A stretch of DNA of 64,000 nt, from NCBI GenBank assembly GCA_946699065.1, contig CAMPDV010000266.1, positions 1 through 64,000 of the forward strand, given 5' to 3'. Below the pieces are notes generated by a model, which did not search any database, was not told the DNA's origin, and saw nothing but the letters and a program-made list of their open reading frames with translations. The stretch comes from Loxodes magnus (Eukaryota; Ciliophora; Karyorelictea; Loxodida; Loxodidae). The translations under genes and the position numbers were made by a program. Below are positions 3,162-62,133 of this stretch, piece after piece (the first letter of the stretch is position 1; each line of letters begins with the position of its first letter).

Positions 3162-3234
3162 TGTCGGTGCAGAGACTTGAACTCCGGTTTCGACGGCCAC
3201 AACGTGGTGCCCTAAGCAGCTAGACTACAGCGAC
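3162..3234 (-). tRNA. tRNA-His-like gene (GTG), unit 1
   Basis: On the minus strand 73 nt fold as a tRNA cloverleaf: acceptor stem of 7 pairs with discriminator A, D arm, anticodon loop TTGTGGC giving anticodon GTG (His) with G37, a 4-nt variable loop, and a T arm with loop TTCAAGT. A run of six T directly follows the 3' end, as expected for RNA polymerase III termination. Three deviations stand out: a C-C mismatch at acceptor pair 5:68, a C-C mismatch at anticodon-stem pair 28:42, and no adjacent G18-G19 pair in the D loop. It may be a functional odd tRNA or a decayed one. All three copies are identical. Confidence 0.75.
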
Positions 3235-4309: not shown

Positions 4310-5443
<1,134 letters not shown>

Positions 5444-5478
5444 GTGAGTGAAGGAGAATTAGAGGGAAGTCTTTCAAG

Positions 5479-9748: not shown

Positions 9749-11893
9749 ATGGCTGAAAATACTAGAACGTCAAGTATTTAGCCCAGCGAACCTATACTCT
9801 TTTAGAAATAAAAACAGAAAGAGTAATCTAAATAAGATATTTCAAGTCAGTAAGGCTAAACTGTTAAAAGCGAAGTCTTGCAAGAGGAACAACTAGGGAT
9901 GAAAAATAATAAGGAAGAATAAAAATAAAATATAGAGAAGCATGAGAGAAAATAATAGTAAAAATAGTCTATGTTTTGGAATAGCAAATATATCTTGGAT
10001 TTGCTTACATAATTTCTAAATATAAATGATATAACTTAGTTATAGTAAGTAAATAGATAATTCTATTATTTTAGTTATCTATTTAAGGAACTAGATACTT
10101 AAAGAGTAAAAAACGAAGCATTATAAACGAAGAATAAGATAGAATGAATTTTGAGATAGATAAGTAAATCTGATGTAGAAACTGTTCATCTATAAGGAAA
10201 ATTATTGTCTTAAAATGTGTGCCTATAAATTAGGAATAATTTAGAGAAATCTATAAATCTCAGAATTTAAAAACTGAAAAATTCCTCTCTAATGAAACTA
10301 AAGGAAATTGTAATAAAAAATTGATCCAATAATAATTTTGATTCTTTACCTAATCTATAAAATATAAAAAGTTTAACCAGCTTAAAAATTTGAAGATACT
10401 ATAATTAGAGATTAAAATTTATACTTTATGCAAGAGCTAACAAATTTAAAATCAGTATATCTAAACAAAGTCGAATAGATATCAGGTTAGTTTTTAGTTG
10501 ATTACTGCTAAAGTCTAAAAATAGAAAATCTAGAAATAGATTGTGAAATGATAAATTACCAAAAGATAAAAGATTATTTAAAAATAAAGGGATAATACAT
10601 TCATAACATTAATATAAACTCTAATAAAAAATTAGACGAGTTTATTGATTTTTTGCCCTAACTTAAAAGAAATTTTAAATAAGTTCAACATATAAAGAGC
10701 CTGATTAGTTTTTAGATAAAGTTAAAAGGTTAAACCTTTAAAGTTTTATCCTTAGAAATACTTAATTCTCAGATTAGACTTTAAGAAATTTATTTAGTTA
10801 TCAGAATTAAAATCTTGAAGCAATTGAAATGTTACATAAGAATCCTTTTAATTACGAATTTTTCTAATTTATTCTGTAAAGCTCTCCTAATATAAAGAAT
10901 CTAAAATGAATTTAAGAAAATAGTAATAAATAAGTTAATAACTAGCAATAGAGTTAATAATAATAAGATATAAAATTTGTAAGGTAGGAATTACTTTAAT
11001 ATCTAGAGAAAGCTTTTATTAGCAATATTTAACAATAAAGTGATTGGGATTTTAAGAGTTCTGCTATATAAAGCTCCTAATATTAAATCATTAATTTTTG
11101 ATAATTTATTTACTTAAGTTAGTAATACATAATAAGTAAATATCCAATTGGAAGAAAATATCTTAGTTTAGATATCACATTAATTTTGCAGATTAGAGAT
11201 TATTTACTTTTGATAATGCGTTTTTGTTAGAGATGAAACTATCTTGCTTATAATATAAAATGCTCCTAATCTTAAAAAATTAGATGTTTGAAAAATGAAT
11301 CAAATTAAAAATGAAACGATTCAATAGCTTGGTATTTATTCATCTAAACTAGAGTATATTTGGTTATGGGAAATGGATCATTTGGCAGATGAAAACTCTT
11401 AGCTTTATCTTTTAAAACTGCACTAAATTATAATATATCTCTTTAAAACATAGTAAATAAGGAAGTCAAATAAAATAAAATCTATAATCCTTAGAGATAA
11501 CTAATATTTCTCTTGGAGAGAACATTTCCGCATGTAAAATGTGAATAAAATAAATGGTTTAAAATATAAAAACTAGAAGTATTATTACTATAGGGACTAA
11601 GTTTAGTAAATGGAGATGTAGTTTAAATAATAAAAAATTGTTCTAAGTTAAAAGATTTAAATCTTGAAAGTAATGAAGAAATAACGGAAGCAGCATTCCC
11701 TATAAGAGATGAATTTGGGTCTTAATATCCAATTTGGAGCAGCTTGAGAACATTAAACTTAACATAATGTTCTAAAGTAAATATTTAATGAATCAATTTA
11801 ATGGTTCTACAGTTCACGAAAATAGAAATATAGTGTGAAAGATTGACAAGATTTAAAGAACAAGAAATGGATTTTGGATTGAGAAGTATTTGA
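9749..11893 (+). pseudogene. F-box/LRR protein, copy 1, frameshifted
   Basis: Same gene as the intact copy at 26576. The N-terminal half including the F-box (Trp-Asn-Ser-Lys-Tyr-Ile-Leu-Asp-Leu-Leu, then Val-Asn-Arg-Gln-Phe-Tyr) reads through. Six single-base insertions relative to intact copies then disturb the frame, at about 10390, 10655, 10675, 11045, 11398 and 11560, all in homopolymer runs. They sum to a multiple of three, so the conserved C-terminus (Gly-Leu-Arg-Ser-Ile then TGA) is again in frame. It is either a young pseudogene or an intact gene with homopolymer sequencing errors. At one Trp site it has TGG (11367-11369) where copy 2 has TGA. Confidence 0.8.
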
Positions 11894-16825: not shown

Positions 16826-18024
16826 GAAGGAATATATTAAAGACTTTAAACTAGAAATTTAAAAACTTAAATCTATTTCATACCAATAAAACTTAAAATT
16901 CATTATTTTATTTTTCTTATTTTATTTACATATATTAAATATTTTTATGGTTAAAGCAAAACTTAAAAAAGTGTATAAGTATTAGAGATATTTTTCATTG
17001 ACTGATTTAGTGATAATAGGGTTATTAAGGATAATTGTTTAAAGATAAGTCTAAAAAATTTACTAATAAATTTAAATTAAATTATTTAATTTTTTTCTAC
17101 TTATAACAAAGAAAAAATCTAGAGAACTGAAAAAAAATTTTAAATACAATTTATTAAGAAACTTATTATTCTAATTTAGTGCAATTGAAATACCTTTGCT
17201 GTTTTATTTTTTGGAAATCCATTTTGAAGAATGTTAAAGCATTTCTCACTAAAAATAAACTTACTATATTATATATCCACAACATTTTAAGAATTTACTA
17301 TCGACAGTTTAAGGTCACGAACATTATAAAGCACGCAAATCTGATAATAATTTTCGCTTTTTTTAATTAAAATCTCTTTCATATTTCATAGTTTCTAACT
17401 ATAATCATTTCTTATTTTCCTCTAATTCAAACACTTTTTTCTTTTACTGAATGTTAGGCTATTTATGATTCTGTAACTTAGATCAAGGAAAATTTAAGCT
17501 GAATTTCCTTTTAGATTAAAAGCTTTTATATAATTTTAAAGCTAATATCACATTAGCTTTAATATAGATCTTACTCTCTCAATTAGTTGATACCAAAAGT
17601 GAATTTACAATAAATTGCAAAATTGATTAAAATTAGTTATCCTCTATTCTGAAGTGCTATATCTTAAATCATTAAAATTATTAATTCAAAAACTCTTAAG
17701 CAATAAATTCTGTCGCTCTTTCACTTTCTGAGCCTTATTTTATTAAACGAAATTATAAATTTTTAAGATTTAAATGAATGGGTTGAGAAAGTAACTAATA
17801 TATACCTAATTTTTTATAGATGAAGACTAAAAGGCAACTAAAAAACTAGTTATCAAGCAAAGTTTTTACTAAAGTGTTGATGATTTTAAATTTATTTTAC
17901 TATTGAATCATTTCTCACTGACTTCAACATCTAGTAATAAATTAATTTCCATTAAAATAATTTAAAGAAACATATCTAATGGAGAGTGACTTAAAGAGGA
18001 ATAATTAGAACTCCACTTTTTAAA

Positions 18025-19520
18025 TAAGAAATAGAAAGGTGCTAGTCCTATATATAAATAAAGTGTTAAGATAAATATTAAAGATGTAAATTATTATATG
18101 AAATCATCCTTTTATTTCAAGTAACTATATTTAAAAAGAAAACTTTTTAACATCATTTAAGTATCTTTCAAATAATGATAAAGTTATAAATCAATTAAGT
18201 GTAAAAAAATAACTTTAGTATCAAATAGTTAAAGCTCAGCTAAACTATTAATATATTAGATTTGAGAAAAGATAAAAGGCTTTAGAGGATAGAACTTTAG
18301 AATAATAAAGGTAAATAACAATTTATTCTACATATTTAAAATCCTATGATGGTAAGGATATTTTACTTTAATATGAATAAGAATTGTTAGAACATATATA
18401 GGAAAAAATTTAATAACTTAAATAGAAAGTAAAACCTTATATTAAAGAAAATGAAATTTTATATAAGAATAACTATAAAAAATTTAATAATTGAAGCTAT
18501 TAAAAGATTAATTATTTAGATAATATTAAAAGGAAATAGACTCAGAATAAATAATCAAATAACCTCTAAGTCAAAATGTTTACTCATAGATTTTAATTTC
18601 AATAAACAGGTAAGCAAATCCAAATTATAGATGAGTTAAATTATTCATTCAATCTAAAATATATTAAGGATATTGAATTTAATAGGATGCTTCAACTGGA
18701 AACTCTATGACCATTTTATCAATAAAGTAAAAGAATTTCATTTTAAAAGTAGTTAAATTTAAAGATGAAAGAGATCATATAACTACATTTGTTTTATTTT
18801 ACTAAACTAATATAAAAATATTAACTTAGCTATTCTTTAAAATTTATTATATTCATATAATTTGATAATTTTCAGTTATATATAATCTCAAGTCACCTAT
18901 CTAAGTTTGAAAAAAGAACAGTCAAAATAATTTCTAAGCATTCTAGAAAAGTATAAATAATTTAAATAAGATATTATTAACCTTTCTTAATCAAGCAAAG
19001 CAAGCTTTACATCATATATTCTTAAAAATGTATTTAAATCTATTTAATGGATAGTCCTACTAATATTGATCAAAAATTTAATATATCTATTTTTTATAAT
19101 TTATTAGACTTTCATTAAAGGTTAAGCTATAAAGTTATTTTAACGATTTTAAATATATGAAGCAAGTTAAGACCAAAAGGGTAACTTTATTATATTTCGA
19201 AGCTTTAAAAGATCTATCAAACTCTTTTAGGTAAAATTACTATTTAATATATAAACTTAAGTAATTCATTTATTTAAAGATTTTATGATTTAGACTTTCA
19301 TATATTATTAGTAATATCTACTTGTAAAAGGAATATATTAGCTCATACAAATACTTACAAAGGAAAATTAAGGTAATTAAATAGACTTTATAATTATTTT
19401 AGGATGAATTAAATAAATTAGCGAAGTCTATAAATAGGAGTTTAGAAATGAGCTAGCTATTTATAAAAGAAATATATTGGATAAGAATTTTGTATAATTT
19501 AACTATCATATAACTTATTT
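18025..19520 (+). CDS. Uncertain protein-coding locus X, unit 2
   Basis: Nearly identical to the copy at 1200-2700, with the first single-base indel only near its 3' end (about 19498). The same frame ambiguity applies, so reading frame, introns and integrity are not settled. Confidence 0.33.
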
Positions 19521-19984
19521 TAATTTAATAAGCTTTAAATACATTTAAGAATCAGAATACCCATAAAGATAAAAGTTATTAATACTTTTATATTTATCTA
19601 TTATTTAAATATCTAGTAAAGTTAACGCCAAAAATAGAAAATGATAAATGCTAATTTTGCATAAATGAATATACTTAGATATAAAAAAATGGTATCTTTG
19701 AATTATAGTCTAAATAATAGGTAAGTTATTAAGAAGCATAATTGAACATAAATTAAAGTTGATTAATTCTAATGTATTTAATTTATTAGATAAAGAGTAA
19801 TTTAATGATTATTAATAATGAAATAGCTATATTAAGCAAAGTTTTATATTTATCATGTTTAGATTGTTCTATATTATTAAAGCTTAGTTTACATTAAAGT
19901 AGAGATAATTAGTATAGAGTCAACTTATTATTATAAGCTAGGCTTGTTTTATTTACATTTTTATTTCATCTTTTCTTTAAAAAA

Positions 19985-20057
19985 TGTCGGTGCAGAGACT
20001 TGAACTCCGGTTTCGACGGCCACAACGTGGTGCCCTAAGCAGCTAGACTACAGCGAC
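19985..20057 (-). tRNA. tRNA-His-like gene (GTG), unit 2
   Basis: Identical to the 73-nt gene at 3162-3234, including the two C-C mismatches, the missing G18-G19 and the T-run terminator on the minus strand. Confidence 0.75.
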
Positions 20058-20059
20058 TT

Positions 20060-21139
20060 ACTATATATAAAATAAAATAAAAAGATAATATTACTATAGA
20101 TATATTTCCTATAATTGTAATTCTAGCTATTCATTACTATTTTAAAATATTAAATGTAAACATTCAGAAGGTTAACCATTAAAGATATCAAATAGGCAAT
20201 AGTACAAGCAGAAAGTAAAGAAGTGAGTATCTGAAAAACTAAAAGATAATAGCAATATAAAATTTAAAGATAAGTATGTTAAAAAAGAAAGGCTTTTTAC
20301 TATATAAATGCTTTAGTTAACTATAGCAAACTTTTAAATACTATATATATTAATGATAATAATGAAACTTAAAGAAATTATAGTAATAAACAATTTATAT
20401 ATATAGTTTGATAATTATCAATATTATGATATATATCACTAAAGTTAACATTATGCTTCATGTTTAGATAAGATACTCTTGTAATTTTAGTTAATAGAAA
20501 ATCTAATTTTTAGTATTTAAATATCATAAAACTTAGTCTACATTTGTAAGTTTAAGCTTTAGAATATAAAAGGAGGAAAAATAAATACATTTATATGAAA
20601 TTTTGATTAATTTAAGACATTGTTTGAAGACTTTAATTTTCATTGTCTAGCATTAAAGTTTATAATGGTAAAATAATTAGTATTAAGCTCTTTAAGTTTA
20701 AGAAAAAAGTTTAAAAATTTCAAAATCTAAAATTTAAAATCTTTACTAAAATAGCTGAAAAAGAATAAGAATATAAAAAATAAGAGATATAAAGAAAGAA
20801 AAAATGATTAAATTATAGATTTAAATTAGAAGCTATTTATGCAGAATATTTCTGAGAAAAAATGAAAATAAATTGTAATTTAAAAATAATATTTTTTAAA
20901 TAAAATAACTATAGAAAAGCAGCTAAAATTTGTATATTTTTTATTAAAATAATTTAAATTATTTTTAGTTTAAAATTAACATTTGATTCCATATTTATGT
21001 TCGTTTCTGCTAAATCTTATCAAATCTTATATAGCTCCATCTACTCTTTTATCTCTAATTTAACTATTATGAAAATTTTAAAAGGGATAAACGGGGCTAG
21101 AAATGATTTAAAAAGATGGTTTTGTAACACTTTTATAAA
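20060..21139. promoter_or_regulatory. Upstream region of actin, unit 2
   Basis: Copy of 3240-4309 with small indels, including a 10-bp duplication (CAAATCTTAT) near 21020. The GC-rich ACGGGGCTAG patch upstream of the actin start is retained at 21091-21100. No gene seen. Confidence 0.35.
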
Positions 21140-22273
<1,134 letters not shown>

Positions 22274-22334
22274 GCGAGTGAAGGAGAATTAGAGGGAAGT
22301 CTTTCAAGAGGAAATAAACTTTGAGTTTATTCCT

Positions 22335-25332
22335 GAATTAAGCTTCTTTCTAAACATTTATTTTATTACTTCCCAAAATATTTTAAATCTATATAATAAA
22401 AAAGTTATCTTTCTCTGTTCTTTTGCATAATCTTCGAATACACTAATTTTTATAAAATATCTTAATAATATAAAATCTTAATAGATTAGAGTAATTTTAA
22501 TTCTAATCATTTCAAGCTAGAATTTCTTCATATACAAATAAAAAAAATTATCTTATTAATTAATTTAATTTATAAGAACCTTCTTTATCTTTAATTTGTT
22601 AAACTTTTAACGAAAGTAATTTATTATTCATACTCTCTTCACAAAAGCACTTATGATTTTCTGAAATTCTCTTATAATTACCTAATATTTTAGCTTTCAA
22701 CTTGTGTAATATATTTTAGTTCATAATCCAATAATTTTTAATTTGTAAGTATGTGTAATTAAAATGGTGATATATTGGAAACTTTTTGATTATTGAATAA
22801 GAGAAGTAAATGTTTAAATTTTAAAAGGTTTATAGATTAAGTAAATTTTTGAATGTTTAGCATTAAAATAATGATGTTTGTACTGTTAATTAGAGGTAAT
22901 AAATGTTTAATGTTTTGATTTATTTTCTAAATGTGATTTCTATGAGTATTTGAAATATATCTTTCTCTTTTTTCTTAATTAATTATTGTAGGATTATATC
23001 TCTAATCTATTTTTAAAGATATATGCTTTTAAGCTATCTAATACTGTTTCCAATAAATAGTATAGCTAAATTTCTAAAATATTAGTTTAGCTTCTAATAA
23101 AGGTGATATTATAATTAAAGTTTACTACTATTATACCTAAATACTTATTTAAGCTTATTTATTATTTGGATTTTAGATTCTAATAATTAATTACTAAGCT
23201 TATCATTTTATCTTCTATAGAACTCTTCTATTCCTTTCAAAACTATCAGAAATTTATATCGTTTCAAATACCTAGTACTGTTTTTATCTTAAATAAAGAG
23301 TATTTGAAAGCTACTTCTTTAGTTGCTGTTTAATTTTTTTAAAGAATTACAAAATTAGAATAATATATTCCATATATGTCATAATCTATTATTCAGAAAT
23401 CTTAATTTATTCCAATAAAAATTAATCATCCATAGATAAAGATACTTTTTATCAAAGATATCTTTTGATAGATTTTTATTAACTTAATTTGATGATTCTT
23501 TTCTGAAGGTTTCTCTAGTTAATAGAGGTAAATTTTCATTAAATCATTAAATTTTAATGTTTTAAGCATCTTAAATAGTTTAGCCTTAGATATGTTCTAT
23601 ATTCGGCAATTTTTTAATAAAAAACCTCTTTCTTTCTTCTAATATTTAGCGTCATTTTCTTTCTAAACTTTTTATTTTTTATATCTGTCTGTTAATTTAT
23701 TTAGTTATAGTCCTTATTTACTCGGTCTTCTATTTACTCATTTTAAAAGAAATAAATCCTACCAATAATAATAAAGATAAATCTGGAAACTCCATTCATC
23801 ACTTTAACTTGGAAAGTAATCAAACATATTCCTTGAGATAAATAGAGTGGATTACCTTATTTATTTTTCCCAGGTATTCTGCTAAATTTTTTTCAGTGTG
23901 AAGTATATAATTTTTACTCCCATCTATCTAGGATTTAGCACCTTCTAAAAATATTTTAAAGATTATTCTTTATGAAAAATTTTAACTGAATGACAATATG
24001 AAACTTCTTAAAGGACTTGTAGAATTATATTTTTGATTTCTATTCTTTTAAATAATTTTTGCTGATGATGCTAAATAGATTTGTCTCGCTTTAAAAAAAT
24101 TAACAAGTAGATTGATTTTAATCTTCAAAGATTTCATAAAGTTTCAATAAGTTAGGGGATTCTAGAATAAAAGATCATGTAAATTTCAGTATTTAGAACT
24201 CAGTCTTATCTTTTTTGCGGTTTTTTAAGGATTCATCATTTTAACTGCAAGCTTAAATGTTTTAAGTTAAATAAAACTTTCGTAGTTACTTTTCCTATTT
24301 GAGTAATTATTTCATAGTTAATTTAAAATATTATTATCAATAGTATTAAAGGAAGAACTTGTAATGTGAGTTCTAGAACTAAATGCATTTCAATGCTTTC
24401 CTATCTTCCTTTTATAAGGAGAATTATGATTAAGTTTTATACAAACCTAGGAAGTTCCATTTATTGGACTATTTCTTTATTTTCTAATGTTTAAACGAAG
24501 ATTTACTTTATTAACTTATTGTTCTGTCTTCTATATACTATTATACAGTTTTATCCTATTTGAGTTTGAGTTGCTGCTATAAGAAATTAATTACTTTATC
24601 CAAAAGCTACAAAACTTCCCTATAAATCTAAACTTTATTTTCCAACTGATTTATTCTTTACTTAACTATCTGATACTAATATTAGAACTGCTACGCCTTA
24701 GAATAGCTCATCAATTTATTTAACTTTATGACTTTAAGTTGAACATTTTCTAGACTCATTTAAGTGACAACTTCAATTGTAAGTTTTTTAGTTTTTAATC
24801 CCTTTTAGTATCTAATTATAAAGCCAGATTAACTTAATTAATACCACTATTTGCTTTGATAATGAAATCCTCAGTCTAATTTATTTCATTTAGCATTCTT
24901 TTTTTGATAAATCTTAGTTATATTAAATAAAAAGTTTTATTAATTGATGCTTCAGTTTTATTTTTTGTAGTCCTAAATCTTTCTTAGTTGTAATTTTGAT
25001 TATAGAAGGAAAACTAAGTTGCTTTGCTTTTTATATGATGCTAAATAATTTTCTATATTATCTTCAAGTTTATTCACAATTAGATGTTCTACTTTTAATA
25101 TAATATTTAAGTTATTATGACATGTAATAGGTATATTGCAGTATAAAGATACTATAACTTGATAAACTGATAAAGAATCAAATATTTATCCTTTATGTAT
25201 TTTAAGCTAATTTAAGTTTACTTTTTTAATATATTATAAAGATATTTTTTTGGCTATCTTCTTGCTGTTTAATGAAATTGAATTCTCCTTTAAATCCAAT
25301 TTTCTTACTCATTTGAAAGAAAGAAAATTGAA
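22335..25332. other. AT-rich stretch between actin and ORF Y, unit 2
   Basis: Direct copy of 5505-8510 with many small indels, e.g. a 5-nt loss and a 4-nt gain near 23.87-23.93 kb. The lack of a preserved frame argues against an intact gene. No other feature seen. Confidence 0.5.
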
Positions 25333-25974
25333 TCATTTATTTGTGAGGCTATACATAAAAAGTCCCTTATAAATATATAAGTATTAGATATTTTACTTAG
25401 TAGCTTTAATTAATTAACAGTTCAAATTAAAATTATGTCTCTTTGTCCTTAGCATTCTACTATTTTCCTTTATCTCTACCTTCTTCAGGTTTCATATTTT
25501 AAAGGTTTTCGAGCAGATCATAAATTCTTAACTTCTTCTTATAGATATTTTATTCGATGCTGGATAAATGGAAGTTATTTCCTTTCAGATATTGTCCTTT
25601 AGTTTGTTTTCTTACTTTTTAACTTATATAGATTTAAGATTAGTTTATTTCTGAATATTTTTAGATAAGTTTAAAATATTCTGAGCTACTCAGATTTTCT
25701 ATAACTTAAATAATAGAATTTTGTTACTTGTCTATTAGGATTTTCGTATATTAAGAAATAACTAAATAATGATAATTTATTGAAATTCATATATATCTAA
25801 TATTTCCTTCACTTTTTAATTAGTTAGCTTTTCTATAGCCTACTGTTCAAAATAGTAGAATATTAAAATTAATTAAAAACTTTAAAAATATATGTAAACT
25901 TAATAAGAAGCTAGAAGTTATAGAATAACCATGATAATTAGATAGTTAAAGTAAAGCATTAAACATATAGCCAT
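25333..25974 (-). pseudogene. ORF Y, unit 2, frameshifted
   Basis: Copy of the 215-codon ORF at 8511-9158. Relative to units 1 and 3 it has a 1-nt deletion near 25763, a 1-nt insertion near 25440 and a 6-nt deletion near 25352, so the central part is out of frame. The pattern fits decay or sequencing error. Confidence 0.4.
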
Positions 25975-26575
25975 AAAAGATAAGTAATATAAACATATAA
26001 ATGATTACTATAATTTGTTCTCTCTATTTCTTATTTTATAGCTTTTAGTAATTTTTATCTTCTTAAGAGGTTATTATCCTTAATTCCTTTAAATAATAAG
26101 CTTTATTTATTTATTTTTGTAATTTTCTTTCTTTTTATTTATTTCTCTCAATCAAACAAATAATTAAAGGATGATTGATAAAAGGGTATTAATATTATCC
26201 ATATAAATAAGTAATGCATAACATTAATTTTAAACAATTATTTTACTATATGCTTCACTTAACCCTATTATAATAAATTATTATAAATAGCTGTGCATCA
26301 ATGAGGTGCTACGCACTCAATAATACAAGTTTTTTTAATATGTATTTAAACTTTTTGTTAAAACTATTAATAAACAGTTATAATGTAAAAGTATTTATTT
26401 CTAACTTATAATATAATATATTTTATTATAATATAGCTACTAATCAATTAGGGATAAGTATCATAATTTATGATGCTTCATTATTTATTTTATAATTCTA
26501 ACTTTTTCTTTTCTTTTTCTTTCGCTTATATCATAATTTATCTTTATTAACTACCTTTTAAACATTTATTATAAA
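25975..26575. promoter_or_regulatory. Intergenic region upstream of F-box copy 2
   Basis: Same arrangement as 9159-9748: hairpin motif at about 26289-26325, AT inverted repeat, 23-bp palindrome at about 26457 and a conserved block just before the ATG. Confidence 0.5.
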
Positions 26576-28705
26576 ATGGCTGAAAATACTAGAACTTCAA
26601 GTATTTAGCCCAGCGAACCTATACTCTTATAGAAATAAAAACAGAAAGAGTAATCTAAATAAGATATTTCAAGTCAGTAAGGCTAAACTGCTAAAAGCGA
26701 AGTCTTGCAAGAGGAACAACTAGGGATGAAAAATAATAAGGAAGAATAAAAATAAAATATAGAGAAGTATGAGAGGAAATATTAGTTAAAATAGTCTATG
26801 TTTTGGAAGAGCAAATATATCTTGGATTTGCTTACATAATTTCTAAATCTAAATGATATAACTTAGTTACAGTAAGTAAATAGACACTTCTATAATTTTA
26901 GTTATCTATTTAAGTAACTAGATAATTATAGAGTAAAAAACGAAATATTATAAACGAAGAATAAGATAGAATGAATTTTGAGATAGATAAGTAAATCTGA
27001 TGTAGAAACAATAGTTCTAGATGGAAACTTTTTGTCTTAAAATGTGTGCCTATAAATTAGGATTAATTTGGAGAAATCTATAAACCTCAGAATTTAAAAA
27101 CTGAAAAATTCCTCTCTAATAAAACTAAAGGAAGTTGTAATACAAAACTGATTCAATAATAATTTTGATTCCTTACCTGATCTATAAAATTTAAAAAGTT
27201 TAACCAGCTTAAAAATTGAAGATACTATAATTATAGATTAAAATTTATACTTTATGCAAGAGCTAACAAATTTAAAATCAGTATATCTCAACAAAGTTGA
27301 ATAGATATCAGGTTAGTTTTTGGTTGACTACTGTCTAAATTTAAATATAAAAGAGTTAGATATAGAGAGTGAAGTAATAAATTATCAAAAGATAATTTAT
27401 TATTTAAAAATAAAGGGATAATACATTCATAACATTAATATAAACTCTAATACTAACTTAGACGAACTTATTGACTTTTGCCCTAACTTAAAAGAAATTT
27501 AAATAAGTTCAACATATAAAGAACCTGATTAGTTTTTAGATAAAGTTAAAAGGTTAAACCTTTAAAGTTTTATCCTTAGAAATACTTAATTCTCAGATTA
27601 GACTTTAAGAGATTTATTTAGTTATCAGAATTAAAATCTTGAAGCAATTGAAATGTTACATAAGAATCCTTTTAATTACGAATTTTTCTAATTTATTCTC
27701 TAAAGCTCTCCTAATATAAAGAATCTATGATGAACTTAAGATAATTTTATAAATTATGTTTATAACTAGTAATAGAATGAAGATTAATAAGATATTAACT
27801 TTGCTTAGTAAAAGTTACTTTCTAGACTCGAAAATATTAATTTTAGAAATTTTCGCATATAAAGTGATTAAATTCTAAGATTTCTTCTTTAAATATCTCC
27901 TAATATTAGAACTATACATTTTTATAACTATGAATAAAATAGTTAATAAGCAAATATGCCTCTGAAAGGAAGTACTTAAGCTCAGATATCACACTAATAT
28001 TTATATTTACAAAATATAATATTTTGGCATTGTAAATATATTAGAGATGAAACTATCAAATTTATAATTTAAAATTCACCTAATTTAACTAGTTTAACGC
28101 TTGTTGGTATGACTCAAATCAGAAACGAAACATTTCATTAATTAGGTATTAACACACCTAAATTAAAGATGATTTGGTTATGAGAATTAGATCAGATAAC
28201 AGATGAAACTCTTAGCTTCATATTTTAAAATTGCACTAAATTAAAATAAATATATATCAAACATAGTAAATAAGGAAGTTAAATAAAATAAAATCTATAA
28301 TCCTAAGGGATAATTAATATTTCTCTTGGAGAGAACATTTCCACGTGTAAAATGTGAATAAAATAGATGGTTTAAATATAAAAGCTAGAATTATTATGAC
28401 TATAGGGAGTAAGTTTAATAAACGAAGATGTAGTTTAAATAATAAAAAATTGTTCTAATTTAAAAGATTTAAATCTTGAAAGTAATGAAGAAATAACGGA
28501 AGCAGCATTCCCTATAAGAGATGAATTTGGATCTTAATATCCAATTTGGAGCAGCTTGAGAAAATTAAACTTAAAAAAATGTTCTAAAGTAAATGTTTAA
28601 TGAATCAATTTAATGGTTCTACAGTTCAAGAAAATAGAAATATAGTGTGAAAGATTGACAAGCTTTAAAGAACAAGAAATGGATTTTGGATTGAGAAGTA
28701 TTTGA
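26576..28705 (+). CDS. F-box/LRR protein, copy 2, intact (709 aa)
   Basis: Likely substrate receptor of a Skp1-cullin-F-box ubiquitin ligase. The frame is continuous from ATG to TGA if TAR is Gln and internal TGA is Trp. Residues 1-72 are Gln/Lys/Glu-rich and disordered-looking. An F-box-like helix set spans about 77-115 (Tyr-Ile-Leu-Asp-Leu-Leu-Thr-Gln-Phe-Leu, Asp-Ile-Thr-Gln-Leu, Val-Asn-Arg-His-Phe-Tyr). From about 170 to 690 there are degenerate leucine-rich repeats of the cysteine-containing type, e.g. Leu-x-x-Leu-x-Leu then Gln-Ile-Thr-Asp-Glu-Thr-Leu near 541. Eight in-frame TGA codons (133, 192, 385, 386, 536, 594, 608, 676) sit with four TGG codons (77, 484, 534, 658). The F-box and LRR assignment is by motif reading only. 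Confidence 0.85.
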
Positions 28706-28914
28706 CTTTGAACTAGAAATAAATTAAACTATTATTTAAAATTATTAAATCTCTTTGTAATTATATAAATTTATTTTATTGCCAAATTAGTTAAAGTAAT
28801 CTTTAAATAAAGTTTATTAAGAAATTGATAAAACAAGTTGTAATCTTATAATCTAATTTGAGAGACTTAAAAAGCTTAATAATGACATAAAATGCTAAAT
28901 AAAGTGTCTATCCC

Positions 28915-29650
28915 TAGAACCAAAATTAAAAGCAGAAAGATATGGACAAAAAATAGAAGAAAATCAGCAAAATTGTAGTATTAAATGGAATTAAGAGAAC
29001 AAGGAATTGATTCAATAATAATTAAAAGAAAAAATTAAGGCTTAAAGCTAAGTAGGAAGAAAAAAGATGATACTACTGCAATTTCAATATAATCTATGGA
29101 AAAGACACAGAAATTTTACAACTTTAAATAAGAACACTGAAAGTAGTAAAAGAAATTGGAGAAAAAAGAAATTAAAATAATAACTAAAACTATTAAGAGA
29201 AAGAGAAGATTACATTGTAAAAAATTTGAGCAATTTACAAGAAAAAAGATATAAAACATTATCTAGGCGAAAGAAGAATTCAAGGACCACATATATGGCA
29301 AGGAGTAGAATTTTAGAGATTTTGAAACTTTTATATTTAGCCTTTAGAGCAATCTGGAGGTTGGCGGGAAAGAGATTGAAATAACTCCATGAACGCCAAG
29401 CATTTAATTATGTCTTATCTGGTGTATTATAAGAGATGCTATATAGGAGTTGGTAAAATCTGTTTTGGCAATTTTAGAATTTTTAAATCTATTAATTGCT
29501 ATATATGAATATTATTTGCATCTTTTTAAGTAATTTTTAGTTTCTAATTTGATTACTAGTTATTATATAAAAAAACAAGTATTTAAATTAAGCTTATATC
29601 AATAGCAAGCTTGTATAATCAAGCGTTCCAAGATGCTAGATTTAAATTAA
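28915..29650 (+). pseudogene. Coiled-coil protein gene, truncated 5' copy
   Basis: Homologous in opposite orientation to the gene at 41930-42836; the shared stretch starts near Lys-Ala-Glu-Arg. The N-terminal third is missing because the repeat-unit junction cuts in at about 28915. The remainder is Lys/Glu/Gln-rich with a long predicted coiled coil, then a more hydrophobic C-terminal part (Leu-Val-Lys-Ser-Val-Leu-Ala-Ile-Leu). Frame changes relative to the other copy are visible, so it is probably dead. Function unknown. Confidence 0.55.
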
Positions 29651-29929
29651 AATGAGAGAATTTCCACAGGATTTAAAGTTTGATTTTTATATTAATAAAG
29701 TTGATAATATGCTTATTAATAGATACTAATTTATATTGCTAATTAATAATTTTTATCTCAGAGCTAATGTAAATTCTTCCTTCTAACTTTTAGATTGCTT
29801 TAGTAGTAATATTAGCAAAGGATTTATTTGATAATATGTAAATAGTACATTAACCATCTTAAATATTCCATTCTAATTAAAAATAAGATAACTCATCAAT
29901 GTTCATAGATATTTCATGCTTTCTTCACT

Positions 29930-30080
29930 TTTCAATTAGTTAATTATTGATAACCTTTTTATTCAATATTGCAGAATTAATTATTAAAGTCAAAATAATT
30001 TAAAGAGAAAGTTAAGTTATGTAGATGCAGGAAATAATAGAATAAATCTAGATAATTTAGAAGATTAAATTAAAACATTC
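29930..30080. repeat. Diverged copy of the region upstream of F-box genes
   Basis: Resembles 8990-9160, the start of ORF Y and adjacent spacer, at low identity. Together with 30740-31395 it shows that an older, more diverged unit remnant lies here. Confidence 0.45.
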
Positions 30081-30600
30081 ATTTTACTTTTTTATAAGAT
30101 AATTAGTAATCAGAAAGTAAAAAAAGAAAGAATCAGCGATAGAAAAATAATTCAATGATTCCCTAAATAACTTTACTAAAGAAAATTACTAGGAAACAGC
30201 TAGAAAAAAATGTCCAAAAACATTTTCTGATTAATAAGAATTTTCGTTTACTTGAAGATATAGTTAGATCAACTCTGTATGACGTGGAATTTAAACTATG
30301 GATAAATATATACACTCCACCTACTTTAACTCCAAAGAAATATATGAAACAGATAGAAGAGCTAGATAATGATTAATGTTACAGATTTAAATAATATAAG
30401 AGAATACAAGAAATTAAACATTGGAAGAAACTTGCAAATCTCAGGCTGAAAAATTCATAAAATGGCTTAAATATAACGGAACTTTATGAAGAAAATACTG
30501 AGTTTAAATTAATTTCACTCAGTCAAAAGTTTGAAACAAATTAATATGAACAAATATTCTTTCTAATCATACCAATATAAAATATTTACCATTTTAGCAA
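30080..30600 (+). CDS. Unknown basic ORF fragment
   Basis: One frame reads as convincing protein with TAR as Gln: a Lys/Arg-rich segment (Ser-Lys-Lys-Arg-Lys), then helical text, then Tyr-Thr-Pro-Pro-Thr-Leu-Thr-Pro-Lys-Lys-Tyr and further charged helices with TGG tryptophans. GC is above background. No family recognised; start and stop are unclear. The stretch is absent from the corresponding place in units 1 and 2, so it is an insertion or was lost there. Confidence 0.38.
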
Positions 30601-30926
30601 ATAAACTTTTTCTTTTCAATGCTTCACATATACTATATTTATAGCATTTCTTTTTACTTTTTCTTTAGTCTATTAATAAAAAAATATGCTTAATTTCAGT
30701 TAATTTTAACTTATATCAGAATTTCTGAATAACAACAGTATAATGAAAAATAAGTAGTATAAGCGATAAAGGTTATTAATAGATGAATATAAAAGATTAG
30801 ATAGTTAAGTAATAAATTAAAGGTAAATATAATAATTCGTATGCTAATTTATTCATTTCATTATTTTTTCTTTCATTTATAGTATAATTTTCCTTTATTA
30901 ACTACCAACTTACTTTTTTTATAAAA

Positions 30927-31395
30927 TACCTTTTAATATTTTAAGTTCAAGCATTTAATCCAATGCTTTCATATTTATACAGAAAAGACTTAAGTGTTGA
31001 TAAAATGAATCAAAGTAAAAATGAAACGATTTATTAGCTTAGTATTTACTCACCTAAACTAGAGAGTATTAATTTAAGAAATGAACCATATAACAGATGA
31101 AACTCTCTGCCTTATTTTTTTAATTGCACGTATTTAAAGAAAATTTCCATCAAATAAATTAAAAATCCTAAAAGGAAAGTTAAATAATATAAAATATATG
31201 AAACTAAGAGTTAATTAATATATCTCTTAAAATGTAAATAAAATAAATGATTCTATATTTAAAATCATTAGAAATAGAGTGGGTCAAGATTCTAGAATAA
31301 TCTTTAATAGGTAGATTTCCCATTTGGAGCTGACGTGACTTATTGGACAAATAGAACGAACAACAAGAAGTATTAAAACACTTTGTTTAATATTA
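30927..31395 (+). pseudogene. F-box/LRR fragment with internal deletion
   Basis: The sequence before 30927 matches the F-box gene upstream block, but the ATG has become ATA. After about 50 bp the fragment jumps to the C-terminal LRR region (Lys-Met-Asn-Gln, Asn-Glu-Thr-Ile, Ser-Pro-Lys-Leu-Glu) and then decays. The F-box and most repeats are deleted. It cannot encode the protein. Confidence 0.75.
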
Positions 31396-31409
31396 AATAT
31401 TAATATAGA

Positions 31410-31447
31410 AAGAACTCGCGCCAATGAGGTGCTACGCGCTCTATAAT
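31410..31447 (+). repeat. Short hairpin-forming repeat
   Basis: The copy CTCGCGCCAATGAGGTGC then TACGCGCTC lies just after the F-box fragment rather than upstream of a gene. Same family as 9473-9510. Confidence 0.6.
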
Positions 31448-31611
31448 CATATTTATTTATCAAATACTTTACTATTTTAGAATTTTAATACTTATACAAG
31501 AATTTTAGAAAGATAATTTATTTAAATTAGAGAATATTAATGATATTTCTAAATTAGTTTAAATATGGAATCGTTAAATTTTAAATAATATTTTATTTAT
31601 TTGTTTATAAT

Positions 31612-33754
31612 TCAAAATTCAATATTTCTCAAATCAAAATCCATTTCTTTATTTTCTTGTGCTTTTTTCACGACTTCAGGTAATATTTTAATTTTTGTTT
31701 ATTACTATCACATTTAAATGATTCATTACATATTTACTTTTGAACATTTCTTTAAGCTTAACTCTTTCGAGTTTATCCAAACTGAATATTAAGACCTAGA
31801 TTCATCTCAAATAGGAAAAGCTTCTTCCGTTATTTCGTCATTGTCTTCAAGATTTAAAGTTCGTAACTTAGAACAATTTTTTATTATTTAAGCTACGTCT
31901 TTGTTTACTAACTATAGGTCTATTAGTTATAATGTTTCTAAATTTTATATTTAGACCATTTATTTAATAAAATTATTACATTCAAGATTGTATACTCCTT
32001 TAGTTATTTCTTAGGATTATAAATTTAACGTTATTTAGCTTTTCTTTAAACCTTATTTTCTTTGTTTGATGGAGATTTTTTTTAAATTTATACAGTTTTT
32101 GAAGATGAAACAGAGAGTTTCATTTGTTATATGATTCATTTCTCCCAAATCAAATCTCTCTAATTTTGTTAGGTAAGTACCTATCTAGTGAAATGTTTCG
32201 TTTGTAATTTGATTCATTTTCTCAATTCCTAAGCTTCTTAGATTAGGTGAGTTTTAGATTATGTATAAAATAGTTTCATCTCTAACAAATTCGCATTATC
32301 AAAAGTAAATAATCTCTAACTTACAAAATTAGTGCTATATCTAAGCTAAGATGTATTCTTTCAGTTGCATATTTGCTTATTAGAAACTAACTTAATTTTA
32401 AACATTTTTGAACATTAATGATCTAGTATTTGGAGCCTTTTAGAGTAGAAGTCTTAAAATTAGATCACTTTATTAATAAACATTTTTGAGAGAAACTTCT
32501 TACAGATTAGCAAGTAACTTCTGCTCTACAAAGTTAATACCTTAATAATGTTCACTCTATTGGTAGTTTTCAGCCTAATTATTTTAATTATCTTCAGTTA
32601 ATATTAGATTCTTTATATTAGGAGAGCTTTAAAGAATTAGTTGAAAAAGCTCTTATTTAAAAGGATTTTTATGTAGCATTTCGATAGTTTCAAGATTTTA
32701 ATGCTGAATAGCAAATAGATTTCTTAAAGCTTAGTCTGAGAATTCACAATTTCAAATGGATAAAATTTTAAAATCTAAATTTTTAATTTTTTCTAAAAGT
32801 TAATCAGATTCTTTATAAACTGATCTTATATCAATTTTCATTAAGTTAGGACAAAAATCAATAAATTATGTTATTTTTTTATTAAAGTTTATATTAATGT
32901 TATGAATATATTATCCCTTTAATTTAAAATAATCTTTCATCTTTTAATAATCTATCATTTCACTCCTTATAATTAACTCTTATATATAGAGATTTAGACA
33001 ATAGTCAACCAAAAACTAACCTGTTATCTCATTAACTTAAGAAAGCTATACTGATTTTAAATTTACTAACTCTTACATAAAGTATAAATTTTAATCTCTA
33101 ATTATAGTAACTTCAATTTTTAAGTTGGTTAAACTTTTTAAATTTTATAGATTAGGTAAAGAATCAAAATTATTATTAAATCAGTTTTTTATTATAACTT
33201 CCTTTAGTTTTATTAGAGAGGAATTTTTCAGTTTTTAAATTCTGAGATTTATGGATTATTCTAAATTATTCCTAATTATAGGAACTCATTTTAAGACAAA
33301 AGATTTCTATCTAGAACTATTGTTTCTACATAAGATTTAATTATCTATCTCAAAATTCATTCTATCTTATTCTTCGTTTATAATGTTTCGTTTTTACTCT
33401 ATAATTATCTAGTTCCTTAAATAGATATCTAAAATTATAGAAATATTTATTTACTTACTGTAACTAAGCTATATCACTAACATTTAGAAATTGCGTAATT
33501 TAATAAAGTATATATTTATTATTCCATAACATCTACTAATTTTACTAATATTTTCTCTCATACTTCTCTATATTTTATTTTTATTCTTTCTTATTATTTT
33601 TCATCCCTAGTTGTTCCTCTTGCAAGACTTCATTCTAAAGATTTTAATATTACTGACTTGAAATATCTTATTCAGATTACTCTTTCTGTTTTTATTTCTT
33701 TAAGAGTATAGATTCACTGGGTTAAATACTCGACGTTCTAGTATTTTCAGCCAT
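31612..33754 (-). pseudogene. F-box/LRR protein, copy 3, degenerate
   Basis: Starts at the conserved Met-Ala-Glu-Asn (33754) and keeps the F-box region, the conserved TGA-as-Trp site after Lys-Ile-Glu and the second TGA-Trp site. Frameshifts follow, for example a lost base near 33273 in the segment equivalent to Val-Cys-Leu-Gln-Ile-Arg and another near the C-terminus (about 31740). The ending differs (Leu-Arg-Asn-Ile-Glu-Phe then TGA) from the usual Arg-Ser-Ile TGA. It is more diverged than the arm copies and oriented away from copy 4. Confidence 0.75.
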
Positions 33755-36876: not shown

Positions 36877-39020
36877 ATGGCTGAAAATACTAGAACTTCA
36901 AGTATTAAGCCTAGCGAACCTATACTCTTATAGAAATAAAAACAGGAAGAGTAATCTAAATAAGATATTTCACTTCAGTAAGGCTAAACTGTTAAAAATA
37001 AAACCTTATAAGAGGAACAACTAGGGATTAAAAATAATAAGGAAGAATAAAAATAAAATATAGAGAAGCATGAGAGGAAATAATAGCTAAAATAGTCTAT
37101 GTTTTGGAATAGCAAATATATCTTGGATTTGCTTACTAAATTTCTAAATCTAAATGATATAGCTTAGTTATAGTAAGTAAATAGATATTTCTATAATTTT
37201 AGTTATCTATTTAAGGAATTGGACACTTAAATAATATAAAATGATATTTAAATTACAAAGAATAAGATAGAATGAATTTTAAAATAAATAAGCTATTCTG
37301 ATGTAGAAAAAATAGTTCTAGATGGAGATTTTTTATCTTAAAATGTGTGTGTATAAATTAGGAATAATTTAGAAAATTCCATTAATCATAGAATTTCAAA
37401 ACTGAAAAATTCCTCTCTAATGAAGTTAAAAGAAGCTGTAATACAAAGCTGGCGTAATGATAACTTTGAATCTCTGCCTAACCTTTCAAATTTTAAAAGC
37501 TTAACAATTTTATAAATTTATGATACTAAAGTTAGAGATTAACATTTATATTTCATTGAATGCTTAGAAAATTTAAAATAAATATGCCTCTCATAAGTTA
37601 ATGAGATAACAGGTTAGTTTTTGGTAGACTACTGTCTAAATTTAAATATAAAAGAGTTAGATATAGAGAGTGAAGCAATAAATTACTAAACAGTGAAAGA
37701 TTATCTAAAAATAAAGGGATAATACATTCATAGCATTAATATAAACTCTAATGAAAAAGTAGATAAACTTATTGATTTTTGCCCTAACTTAAGGATAGTT
37801 GAATTAGAATCATCTTATAAATAACCTGATAAACTTTTAGAGAAAATTAGAAAATTAGACCTTCAAAGCATAAGCATTTGCACGTAATTTTCAGATAAGA
37901 CTCTAAATTATTTGATCGTAAGTATGAAAATCTTGAAAGTATTTAAATGTTTTATGAAAATCCATTTAAATACAAACTATTCTGACTAATTCTCTAAAGC
38001 TCTCCTAATATTAAGAATCTAAGATGAATTTAAGGTAATTACCATATCTAAGTTGATAACTAGTAATAGAGTGAAGACTAATCAGATATTAACTTTGCAC
38101 AGTTTAAATTATTTTCTAGTCTTGAGAAGCTTTTTGTTAATAATGTTTGATAATAAAGTGATTGAATTTTAAGGTTTCTACTTTAAAAAAGTCCTAATAT
38201 TAGATAAATATAGTTTAACAATATGTACAGCTAAGCAAGTAACATATAATAAGTAAATATGCAATAGAAAGAAATTATCTTAGCTTAGATTCCTCACTAA
38301 TTTTGCTAGTTAGAGCATATTTGCTTTTGATAATGTGACTCAATTAAAGATGAAACTTTCTTATTCATTATTTAAAATTCACCTAATCTAAGAAGTTTAG
38401 GCTTGGATAAAATGAATCAAATTAGAGATGAAACATTTCAATAGCTAGGTATTTATTCCTCTAAATTAGAGAGTATTAATTTAAGAGAAATTAATCATAT
38501 AACAGATTAAACTCTAAGCTTTATCTTTAAAAACTGCACTAATTTCTAGAAAATTTTCATAAGCCAAAGTTAATAAATTTAAAAATAAAATACATCAACA
38601 TAAAAACTATAGCTATAGGAGTTAACTAATACTTCTTATGGAAAGAGCAGGTTTACATGTAAAACGTGAATAAAATAAATGAATCAATTACAAAATTTAA
38701 AATAATTAGAACTAGAGGGGCTATGTTTAGTAAATGAAGATGTAGTTTACATAATAAAAAATTGTTATAAGTTAAAAATTTTAAATTTGCAAAATAATAA
38801 AGAAATAACGGAAGAAGCGTTTTCTATTAGAGATGAATCTGGATCTTATTATCCAATTTGGAAAAACTTGAGAACATTAAACTTAAGATAGTGTTCTAAA
38901 GTAAATATTTAATGGATAAATTTAATGACTCAACAGTTTACGAAAATAGAATTCGTATGTGACAGAATGAAAGTATCACACGAAGATAAAATAATGGATT
39001 TTGATTTGAGAAGTATTTGA
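36877..39020 (+). pseudogene. F-box/LRR protein, copy 4, one frameshift
   Basis: Full-length relative of the 709-aa gene, the most diverged of the near-complete copies. It reads from Met-Ala-Glu-Asn through the F-box to about 37905, where one base is missing before Lys-Tyr-Glu-Asn-Leu-Glu, then continues in the other frame to Asp-Leu-Arg-Ser-Ile TGA. It is informative for the code: at two sites where other copies have TGA it has TGG (37450-37452 after Gln-Ser; 38913-38915 after Ile-Gln). Conversely it has TGA at 38328-38330 where copy 2 has TGG. The single frameshift could be real or an assembly error. Confidence 0.8.
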
Positions 39021-42836: not shown

Positions 42837-42839
42837 TTT

Positions 42840-43376: not shown

Positions 43377-45524
43377 TCAAATACTTCTCACATCAAAATC
43401 CATTTCTTGCTCTTTCAGTCTTGTCAGTCTTTCACAAAATATTTCTATTTTTGTGAACTGTAGAGTCATTAAATTGATTCATTAAACATTTACTTTAGTA
43501 CATTATGTTAAGTTTAATTTTCTCAAGCTGCTCCAAATTGGATATTAAGACCCAGTCTCATCTCTTATAGGAAATGCTGCTTCCGTTATTTCTTCATTAC
43601 TTTCAAGATTTAAATTTTTTAACTTAGAACAATTTTTAATTATTTAAACTACATCTTCATTTACTAAACTTAGCCCTTTTAATTCTAATTATATTAAATT
43701 TTTAATTTAAATAATTTATTTAATTCAAATTTTACATTCGATATTGCTCTCACCAAAAGAACTATTAATTATCTCTTAGGATTATAATTTTTAAGTTGCT
43801 AAACTTCCTTTCAAAGTTTGTTCACTTTTTTGAATGGAAATAAGCTTTAAATTCGTGCAGTTTTTAAAAATTAAGTAAAGAGTTTCATCTGTTATATGAT
43901 TAATTTCTCTTAATTAAATATACTCTAGTTTAGATGAATAAATACCAAGCTATTGAATTGTTTCATTTTTAATTTTATTCATTTTATAAACATTTAAGTT
44001 TTTTAGATTAGGAGCATTTTAAATTATGAATAAGATAGTTTCATCTCTAACAAAATCGCATTATCAAAAGTAAATAAACTCTAACTTTATAAATTAGTGT
44101 GATATCTAAACTAAGATATTTTCTCCCAATTGCATATTTACTTATTATGTATTACTAACTTAAGTAAATAAATTATCAAAAATTAATTATTTAATATTAG
44201 GAGCTTTATATAGCAGAACTCTTAAAATCTAATCACTTTATTGTTAAGCATCCTTTATAAAAACTTTCTCTAGATTATAAAGAAATTTCTAATTTCCAAA
44301 GTTAATATCCTATTAATCTTTACTCTATTGCTAGTTATCAATTTAATTATTATCCTTATCTTAAATTCATCATAGATTCTTTATATTAGGAGAGCTTTAC
44401 AGAATAAATTAGAAAAATTCGTAATTAAAAGGATTCTTATGTAACATTTCAATTGCTTCAAGATTTTAATTCTGACAACTAAATAAATCTCTTAAAGCCT
44501 AATCTGAGAATTAAGTATTTCTAAGGCTAAACCTTTAAAGGTTTAACCTTTTAACTTTATCTAAAAACTAATCAGGTTCTTTATATGTTTCTATTATTTA
44601 AATTTTATTTAAGTTAGGGCAAAAATCAATAAACTCGTCTAATTTTTTATTATAGTTTATATTAATGTTATGAATGTATTATCCCTTTATTTTTAAATAA
44701 TCTTTTATCTTTTGGTAATTTATCATTTCACAATCTATTTCTAGATTTTCTATTTTTAGACTTTAACAATAATCAACCAAAAACTAACCTGATATCTATT
44801 TGACTTTGTTGAGATATACTGATTTTAAATTTGTTAACTCTTATATAAAGTATAAATTTTAATCTCTAATTATAGTATCTTCAATTTTTAAGTTGGTTAA
44901 ACTTTTTAAATTTTATAAATTAGGTAAGGAATCAAAATTATTATTGGATCAATTTTATATTATAATTTCCTTTAGTTTCATTAGAGAGGGATTTTTCAGT
45001 TTTTAAATTCTGAGGTTTATAGATTTCTCCAAATTATTCCTAATTTATAGGCACACATTTTAAGACAAAAAGTTTCCATCTATATCTATTGTTTCTACAT
45101 CAGATTTACTTATCTATCTCAAAATTCATTCTATCTTATTCTTCGTTTATAATTTTTCGTTTTTTACTCTATAAATGTATAGTTCCTTAAATAGATAACT
45201 AAAATTATAGAAATATCTATTTACTTACTGTAACTAAGCTATATCATTTAGATTTAGAAATTATGTAAGCAAATCCAAGATATATTTGCTATTCCAAAGC
45301 ATAGACTATTTTAGCTAATATTTCCTCTCATGCTTCTCTATATTTTATTTTTATTCTTCCTTATTATTTTTCATCTCTAGTTGTTCCTCTTGCAAGACTT
45401 CGCTTTTAACAGTTTAGCATTACTGACTTGAAATATCTTATTTAGATTACTCTTCCTGTTTTTATTTCTATAAGAGTATAGGTTCGCTGGGCTAAATACT
45501 TGAAGTTCTAGTATTTTCAGCCAT
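43377..45524 (-). CDS. F-box/LRR protein, copy 5, intact (715 aa)
   Basis: Same architecture as copy 2: Gln/Lys-rich N-terminus, F-box around Ile-Leu-Asp-Leu-Leu and Val-Asn-Arg-Tyr-Phe-Tyr, then LRRs to the end at Val-Arg-Ser-Ile TGA. The full frame is open with TAR=Gln and TGA=Trp. Start chosen at the conserved Met-Ala-Glu-Asn-Thr-Arg-Thr. It is the mirror partner of copy 2 by position, and the N-terminal region agrees with copy 2. The central LRR block instead resembles copy 1 (Asn-Glu-Thr-Ile-Gln-Gln-Leu-Gly-Ile-Tyr-Ser-Ser-Lys). Upstream elements (palindrome, hairpin) are kept at about 45630 and 45778-45812. Confidence 0.83.
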
Positions 45525-49841: not shown

Positions 49842-50975
<1,134 letters not shown>

Positions 50976-60003: not shown

Positions 60004-62133
60004 TCAAATACTTCTCAATCCAAAATCCATTTCTTGATCTTTAAATCTTGTCAATCTTTCACACTATATTTCTATTTTCGTGAACTGTAGAACCATTAAA
60101 TTGATTCATTAAATATTTACTTTAGAACATTATTTTAAGTTTAATGTTCTCAAGTTACTCCAAATTGGATATTAAGACCCAGTCTCATCTCTAATTGGAA
60201 ATCCTCTTTCCGTTATTTCTTCATTACTTTCAAGATTTAAATCTTTTAAATTAGAACAATTTTTTATTATTTAAACTACATCTTCATTTACTAAACTTAG
60301 TCCCTATAGTAATAATACTTCTAGTTTTTATATTTAAACCATTTATTTTATTCACATTTTACATGCGGAAATGTTCTCTCCAAGAGAAATATTAGTTATC
60401 TCTAAGGATTTTGGATTTTATTTTATTTAGCTTCCTTATTTACTATGTCTTAAAGAGATTTATTATAATTTAGTGCAGTTTTAAAAGATAAAGCTAAGAG
60501 TTTCATCTGTTATTTGATCTAATTCTCATATAAGAATCATCTCTAATTTAGGTGTGTAGATACCTATATAATTAAATGTTTCGTTTCTGATTTGAGTCAT
60601 CCCAGCAAGCATTAAACTAGTTAAATTAGGTGAATTTTAAATTATAAATTTGATAGTTTCATCTCTAATATATTTACAATTCAAAAATTTGATATTTTGT
60701 AAATATAAATATTAGTGTGATATCTGAGCTTAAATATTTTCTTTCAGAGGCATATTTACTTATTAACTACTACTCATTAAATTTTAAAAATGTAAAGTTC
60801 TAATATTAGGAGATATTTAAAGCAGAAATCTTAGAATTTAATCACTTTATAAGCGAAAATTTATAATACTAATATTTTAGAGTCTAGAAAGTAACTTTTA
60901 CTAATCAAAGTTAATATCTTATTAATCTTCATTCTATTACTAGTTATCAACCTAATTCATAAAAGTATCTTAAGCTCAACTTAGACATTTTATATTAGGA
61001 GTGCTTTAGAGAATTAGTTAGAAAAAATTATTTTAAAATGGATTATTATTTAAAATTTTAATAGTTTCAAGATTTTAATTCTGACAATTAAATAAATTTC
61101 TTAAAGCCTAATCTGAGAATTAAGTATTTCTAAGGATAAAACTTTAAAGGTTTAACCTTTTAACTTTATCTAAAAACTAATCAGGCTCTTTATATGTTTC
61201 TATTATTTAAATTTCTTTTAAGTTAGGGCAAAAGTCAATAAGTTCGTCTAATTTAGTATTAGAGTTTATATTAATGTTATGAATGTATTATCCCTTTATT
61301 TTTAAATAATCTTTTATCTTTTGGTAATTTATCATTTCACAATCTATTTCTAAATTTTCTATTTTTAGACTTTAACAATAATCAAACAAAAACTAACCTG
61401 ATATCTATTCGACATTGCTGAGATATACTGATTTTAAATTTTTTAGCTCTTGCATAAAGTATAAATTTTAATCTCTAATTATAGTATTTTAAATTTTTAA
61501 GTAGGATAGATTCCTTAAATTTTATAGGTTAGGTAAGGAATCAAAATTATTATTGGATCAGTTTTGTATTACAATTACCTTTAGTTTCATTAGAGAGGAA
61601 TTTTTCAGTTTTTAAATTCTGAGATTTATAGATTTCTCCAAATTATTCCTAATTTATAGGCACACATTTTAAGACAATAATTTTCCTTATAGATGAACGG
61701 CTTCAACATCAGATTTACTTATCTATCTCAAAATTCATTCTATCTTATTCTTTGTAATTTAAATATCATTTTATATTATTTAAGTGTCCAGTTCCTTAAA
61801 TAGATATCTAAAATTATAGAAGTGTCTATTTACTTACTATAACTAAGTTATATCACTTAGATTTAGAAATTGCGTAAGCAAATCCAAGATATATTTGCTA
61901 TTCCAAAACATAGACTATTTTGGCTATTATTTTCTCTCATGCTTCTCTATATTTTATTTTTATTCTTCCTTATTATTTTTAATCCCTAGTTGTTCCTCTT
62001 GCAAGACTTCGCTTTTAACAGTTTAGCATTACTGACTTGAAATATCTTATTTAGATTACTCTTCCTATTTTTATTTCTATAAGAGTATAGGTTCGCTGGG
62101 CTTAATACTTGACGTTCTAGTATTTTCAGCCAT
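60004..62133 (-). CDS. F-box/LRR protein, copy 6, intact (709 aa)
   Basis: Complete frame from Met-Ala-Glu-Asn to Gly-Leu-Arg-Ser-Ile TGA with TAR=Gln and TGA=Trp, the same length as copy 2. F-box at about 77-115 with Val-Asn-Arg-His-Phe-Tyr, then LRRs. At the N-terminal LRR start it matches copy 1 (Val-His-Leu-Gln-Gly-Lys-Leu-Leu-Ser), its positional mirror. In the middle it matches copy 2 (Asn-Met-Pro-Leu-Lys, Gln-Ile-Arg-Asn-Glu-Thr-Phe). It lies next to the LINE, as copy 1 does. It is predicted to be functional and the target protein is unknown. Confidence 0.84.

Follow-up and report, generated by a model that had tools for sequence, protein, structure and literature searches.

The 64,000 nucleotides analysed here (the window, which forms the start of contig C266) are almost certainly Loxodes nuclear DNA read with the karyorelict code, NCBI table 27, in which TAA and TAG encode glutamine and TGA encodes tryptophan within genes and stop at the gene end. 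Most likely they come from the macronuclear assembly published for L. magnus. PMC11441545 assigns karyorelicts, including Loxodes, to this table, with UGA as the sole stop and also as a tryptophan codon. A Loxodes code with TGA as both Trp and stop is already published, apparently for the very assembly used here, and the finding is not new. Still, the use of one codon for both purposes is remarkable, and a blind look at the raw sequence retrieved half of this code. That sequence-only reading held that TGA is a tryptophan codon in a family of F-box/LRR genes. The assignment is right and extends beyond the family, to Trp positions 81, 88 and 342 of actin relatives and, in 10 of 20 TGA-holding kinases, to the conserved Trp of the DxWSxG motif. 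The accompanying description of TGA as sense is sound for Trp and incomplete as a whole, as it omits the stop role: TGA follows all 18 complete actin alignments, so its use as a sense codon is context-dependent.

Under table 11, no open reading frame of at least 100 codons occurs in the window. The window contains six copies of the F-box/LRR gene, along with actin and tRNA-His genes. Genome searches covered 705,730,643 bases in 7843 contigs, and the 21 full-length F-box/LRR copies cited below are 18 that were hand-picked and fetched plus three from the window.

26576..28702, + strand: F-box/LRR copy 2, 709 codons with 8 internal TGA (Trp)
26972..26974, + strand: TGA codon 133 of copy 2; TGA in 6/6 window copies, 18 TGA and 3 TGG in the 21 full-length copies
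28355..28357, + strand: TGA codon 594; TGA in 21/21 full-length copies
28601..28603, + strand: TGA codon 676; 19 TGA and 2 TGG in the 21 full-length copies; the nearest coding TGA, 34 codons from the end
28703..28711, + strand: TGA CTT TGA, codons 710 and 712, probable terminator
9749..11893, + strand: F-box/LRR copy 1, six extra single bases compared with copy 2; the end includes codon position 710
31612..33754, - strand: F-box/LRR copy 3, two single-base deletions; the end includes codon position 712
36877..39020, + strand: F-box/LRR copy 4, lacking 4 bases near codon 345; TGG at 37450 and 38913
43380..45524, - strand: F-box/LRR copy 5, full length, 7 internal TGA
60007..62133, - strand: F-box/LRR copy 6, full length, 6 internal TGA
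4310..5443, + strand: actin; Trp codons 4x TGG, no internal TGA, TGA at the end
21140..22273, + strand: actin, second copy, features as in the first
49842..50975, - strand: actin, third copy, features as in the first
3162..3234, - strand; 19985-20057, - strand; 52057-52129, + strand: tRNA-His(GUG)

Copy 2 holds in-frame TGA at codons 133, 192, 385, 386, 536, 594, 608 and 676, exactly the eight originally counted, and again at 710 and 712, beyond the coding frame. Every one of the six window copies has TGA at 710, at 712 or at both; the deviating codons are GAA (710, copy 3) and CGA (712, copy 5). The TGG codons reported opposite TGA of copy 2 (copy 4 at 37450 and 38913, copy 1 at 11367) were located correctly, as was the reverse exchange at codon 484, which is TGG in copy 2 and TGA in copies 1 and 4. 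As far as codon 709, every indel that separates copies 2, 5 and 6 has a length divisible by three. The claim that these three are open if TGA is sense holds in that the frame is kept to codon 709, but openness proves nothing alone because every frame is open once three stops are read as sense, and we dropped it as evidence. Copies 1, 3 and 4, with their frame-breaking indels, may be pseudogenes or assembly errors, which are indistinguishable without reads.

The LRR part of copy 2 matches FBXL2 and FBXL17 chains (E 4.8e-11 to 3.1e-10), and an LRR solenoid is what it shares with these F-box/LRR proteins. The matches cover codons 478-645 and 483-643, spanning the TGA codons at 536, 594 and 608, which indicates that the frame runs on through TGA. 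FBXL proteins carry an F-box, whereas residues 1-132 of copy 2 gave no Pfam F-box match at E up to 5; the "F-box" label reflects what we take to be an F-box-like motif at about residues 80-112, together with the LRR matches. A structure model of copy 2 (mean pLDDT 50), used for the strand-helix pattern only, has strand-helix units repeated from about residue 285. No database relative of copy 2 appeared at E <= 0.01 among the 7997 candidates scored, which were those with the most words in common with it. Pfam scans in six frames of positions 1-4990, 5400-9700, 11800-16780, 28700-31700 and 38900-43880 returned nothing but actin, and a Pfam scan of six other candidate stretches of the window gave no match.

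The differences among the six window copies partly exceed chance. In-frame dN/dS ranges from 0.43 to 0.65, compared with shuffled means of 0.72-0.89, and lies under the shuffled mean in 15 of 15 pairs. Eleven of these pairs fall under all 500 shuffles; the other four were matched by 1, 1, 19 and 21 shuffles. We also redistributed the substitutions observed in the six window copies among sites of the same base (300 shuffles), a null in which pair counts are not independent, one change being counted against several copies. TGA-TAA pairs were rare (7 observed, 39.4 expected), and TGA-TGT plus TGA-TGC pairs were absent (0 versus 12.9). TGA-TGG pairs numbered 16 where 8.5 were expected, a value reached by 7 of 300 shuffles. 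The same test gave no depletion of TGA-AGA pairs in the six copies (15 versus 14.2) and no TGA-TGG excess when confined to the intact copies 2, 5 and 6 (1 versus 1.4). From the low dN/dS and the substitution shuffle together, we conclude that the F-box/LRR frame is under constraint and that TGA acts in it as a constrained sense codon.

The sequence-only reading had relied on TGA/TGG exchange at conserved sites. The sites are as cited; the argument by itself is weak, and we rejected it as decisive alone: among the six window copies, TGG accompanies TGA in 4 of 15 in-frame TGA columns, and the two remaining frames give 4 of 19 and 3 of 52. Aligning the family by codon, a check proposed at the same time, gave a mixed result. 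The 21 full-length copies have 15 columns with TGA; three of them, at codons 133, 594 and 676, hold TGA and TGG only, and the others, for example 385, 536 and 608, are mixed. TGA makes up 146 of 213 Trp codons in these copies (0.69), beside 0.62-0.87 for six other A/G-ending pairs, and a share of about 70% is expected of an AT-rich genome. The suggested codon-reassignment inference, run on the F-box family as a column vote, put Trp just ahead of Gln for TGA, but its TGG control picked Gln; we set the TGA result aside as uninformative. Across the genome, the best 63 of 3148 candidate copies were scored; each matches over a long stretch and contains 4-9 internal TGA.

The three window actins each share 376 of 377 residues with Q76IH7, an actin of Loxodes striatus. 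In each, all 10 TAA/TAG codons fall on Gln of that record, a comparison limited by the record itself having been translated under somebody's chosen code; in the F-box family, the column vote likewise gave Gln the highest score for both codons. The earlier assignment of TAA and TAG to Gln is borne out by both results.

To follow TGA outside the F-box/LRR family, we aligned 28 actin loci with TGA as X, comprising the 8 top matches and 20 picked from 96, mostly for holding TGA. The codons at the four reference Trp positions were 17 TGG, 5 TGA and 4 others (Trp81), 17 TGG, 4 TGA and 5 others (Trp88), 15 TGG, 1 TGA and 7 others (Trp342), and 15 TGG, no TGA and 7 others (Trp358). A scatter of TGA over no particular amino acid had been named as evidence against Trp, and here the outcome was mixed: of the 29 internal TGA in the 22 non-redundant rows, 10 coincide with a reference Trp, 5 with Phe339 and 14 with assorted residues, some of these 14 in copies that are frameshifted, fragmentary or distant. 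In L010, L016 and L017 all five TGA codons lie on Trp and the genes also end with TGA. With L009 added, these relatives provide a direct example of TGA at conserved Trp in genes with a terminal TGA. Eighteen actin alignments extend to residue 377, 8 of them near-identical copies, and in every one TGA stands directly after that residue. As a separate observation, paralogues L011-L015 have TGA at Phe339 and TTT at Trp342, which looks like swapped aromatic residues.

For kinases, we took the first 20 TGA-holding rows of 136 scored (5592 candidates) and again aligned TGA as X. The DxWSxG Trp column contains 10 TGA, 10 TGG and nothing else, a proportion that is not a genome-wide ratio, as the rows were chosen for holding TGA. 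That leaves 19 of the 29 TGA codons: 3 are in a column where Trp occurs 10 times and Phe and Gln once each, 7 in one where Pro occurs 11 times and Trp twice, and 9 are scattered outside Trp columns.

In the last 20 codons of 19 F-box copies (the 21 minus two with different ends), we counted 0 of 133 TGA, 2 of 980 TAA and 13 of 311 TAG, figures that depend on our placement of the gene end at codon 709. The coding TGA nearest to this end is 34 codons away in the 19 copies. The depletion matches that reported for L. magnus in PMC11441545, where UGA and UAA become scarce before the stop and UAG does not. Termination driven by eRF1 close to transcript ends is the model of PMC4967479, and under it eRF1 would win solely near the mRNA 3' end.

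It had been proposed that a tRNA-Trp with anticodon UCA be sought. A tRNA-Trp pattern search found 153 places (52 with a reversed control pattern), of which 100 were listed; contigs C67 and C148 account for 84 of these 100, almost all of them arranged as tandem arrays. Twelve UCA-type places occur among the 100 listed of 153, and ARAGORN calls none of them a tRNA. ARAGORN did report tRNA-Trp(CCA) at the five array loci and two C110 loci submitted. In the array genes inspected by eye, positions 27 and 43 are unpaired (A27.C43 or U27.C43), so that four base pairs of the anticodon stem are left, and the two genes on C110 retain the fifth stem pair. RNA folding returned a cloverleaf for none of the three tRNAs tried. 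According to PMC13092985, Loxodes tRNA-Trp(CCA) has a 4-bp anticodon stem, and the Blastocrithidia and Condylostoma forms increase UGA read-through in reporters. Because the literature names tRNA-Trp(CCA) with a 4-bp stem, and such genes are found here, tRNA-Trp(UCA) is probably not the UGA decoder. Going by that literature, the short-stemmed tRNA-Trp(CCA) would read UGA as a near-cognate by default. The arrays themselves occupy C67:482323-491201 (at least 48 places, roughly 190 bases apart) and C148:155464-165520 (at least 36 places, roughly 240 bases apart).

Three other accounts of TGA have to be weighed against these data. One makes TGA a stop only, as in the Tetrahymena-type code (NCBI table 6), and the F-box/LRR copies decaying pseudogenes. 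The window actins, which end at TGA and lack it internally, fit this, as do the broken frames of copies 1, 3 and 4 and a dN/dS that is just moderately low (0.43-0.65). Yet codon 133 is TGA in six copies among which the frame is constrained, each of the best 63 of 3148 candidates combines 4-9 internal TGA with long matches, and TGA-TAA exchange is strongly depleted. TGA on conserved Trp in actins and kinases is strongly contrary, and we regard the stop-only account as extremely improbable. A second possibility, that TGA stands for a different residue, for example Cys (Euplotes-like) or Arg, draws on the undepleted TGA-AGA pairs of the F-box family and on those actin and kinase TGA codons that sit at other residues. 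The total lack of TGA-TGT/TGC pairs against 12.9 expected, and a kinase DxWSxG column made up of TGA and TGG only, leave it with a probability close to nil.

The third is a code of the Condylostoma type (NCBI table 28), with UAA and UAG also acting as stops near transcript ends. In PMC4967479, Condylostoma magnum has all three stops as sense codons and terminates by context, the same mechanism as proposed here. Genes there also end with UAA and UAG, whereas the 18 complete actin alignments, a single family sampled at actin ends only, are all followed by TGA. In addition, TAG is undepleted before the F-box end, whereas TGA and TAA are depleted, and UGA is named as the sole stop of Loxodes in PMC11441545. 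A table 28 code is therefore very unlikely. The nonstop code of Blastocrithidia likewise reassigns all three stops and has UGA=Trp; unlike here, UAR is Glu there and UAA doubles as stop. Table 27, used by Loxodes and Parduczia, has in common with the window TAA/TAG as Gln and TGA as Trp plus stop. In both, coding TGA and TAA are almost absent right before the stop, and the tRNA-Trp(CCA) with 4-bp anticodon stem reported for Loxodes has genes of its kind here; we saw no difference among the features tested.

More unusual than the code may be the co-amplification of actin and F-box/LRR genes, in which F-box/LRR diverges far beyond its flanks. The window includes segmental copies at 1-12098, 16826-28913 and 43333-55298 (reverse). 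The three differ by 13-24 substitutions/kb outside actin and F-box/LRR and by 93-141/kb inside F-box/LRR. At least 43 full-length actin matches score 450-460 bits, on contigs C266, C707, C711, C437, C524, C1162, C1812, C405 and others. Among the 43 listed, at least 23 have a scored F-box/LRR gene 4.0-4.9 kb downstream on the same strand, a partner count that rests on the best 63 of 3148 candidates. The L. magnus paper (PMC11441545) does not use the term "F-box" in its main text, and a limited literature search found no Loxodes paper on such an F-box/LRR family; the co-amplified genes may merit separate study.

The F-box/LRR genes look like mosaics of each other: which copy is closest shifts from one part of the gene to the next, a pattern typical of gene conversion. 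When the gene is cut into six segments (21 copies), none has a dN/dS of 1 or more, and the maximum is 0.82 at codons 285-384. Conceivably, although we think it rather unlikely, the family is a recognition repertoire driven by gene conversion, serving as a variable adaptor of an SCF ubiquitin ligase; actin and tRNA-His would then be passengers. At the other extreme of divergence, positions 1-3600 and 16826-20425 of the window show zero substitutions over about 3.6 kb, an identity that reflects very recent duplication, conversion or an assembly effect.
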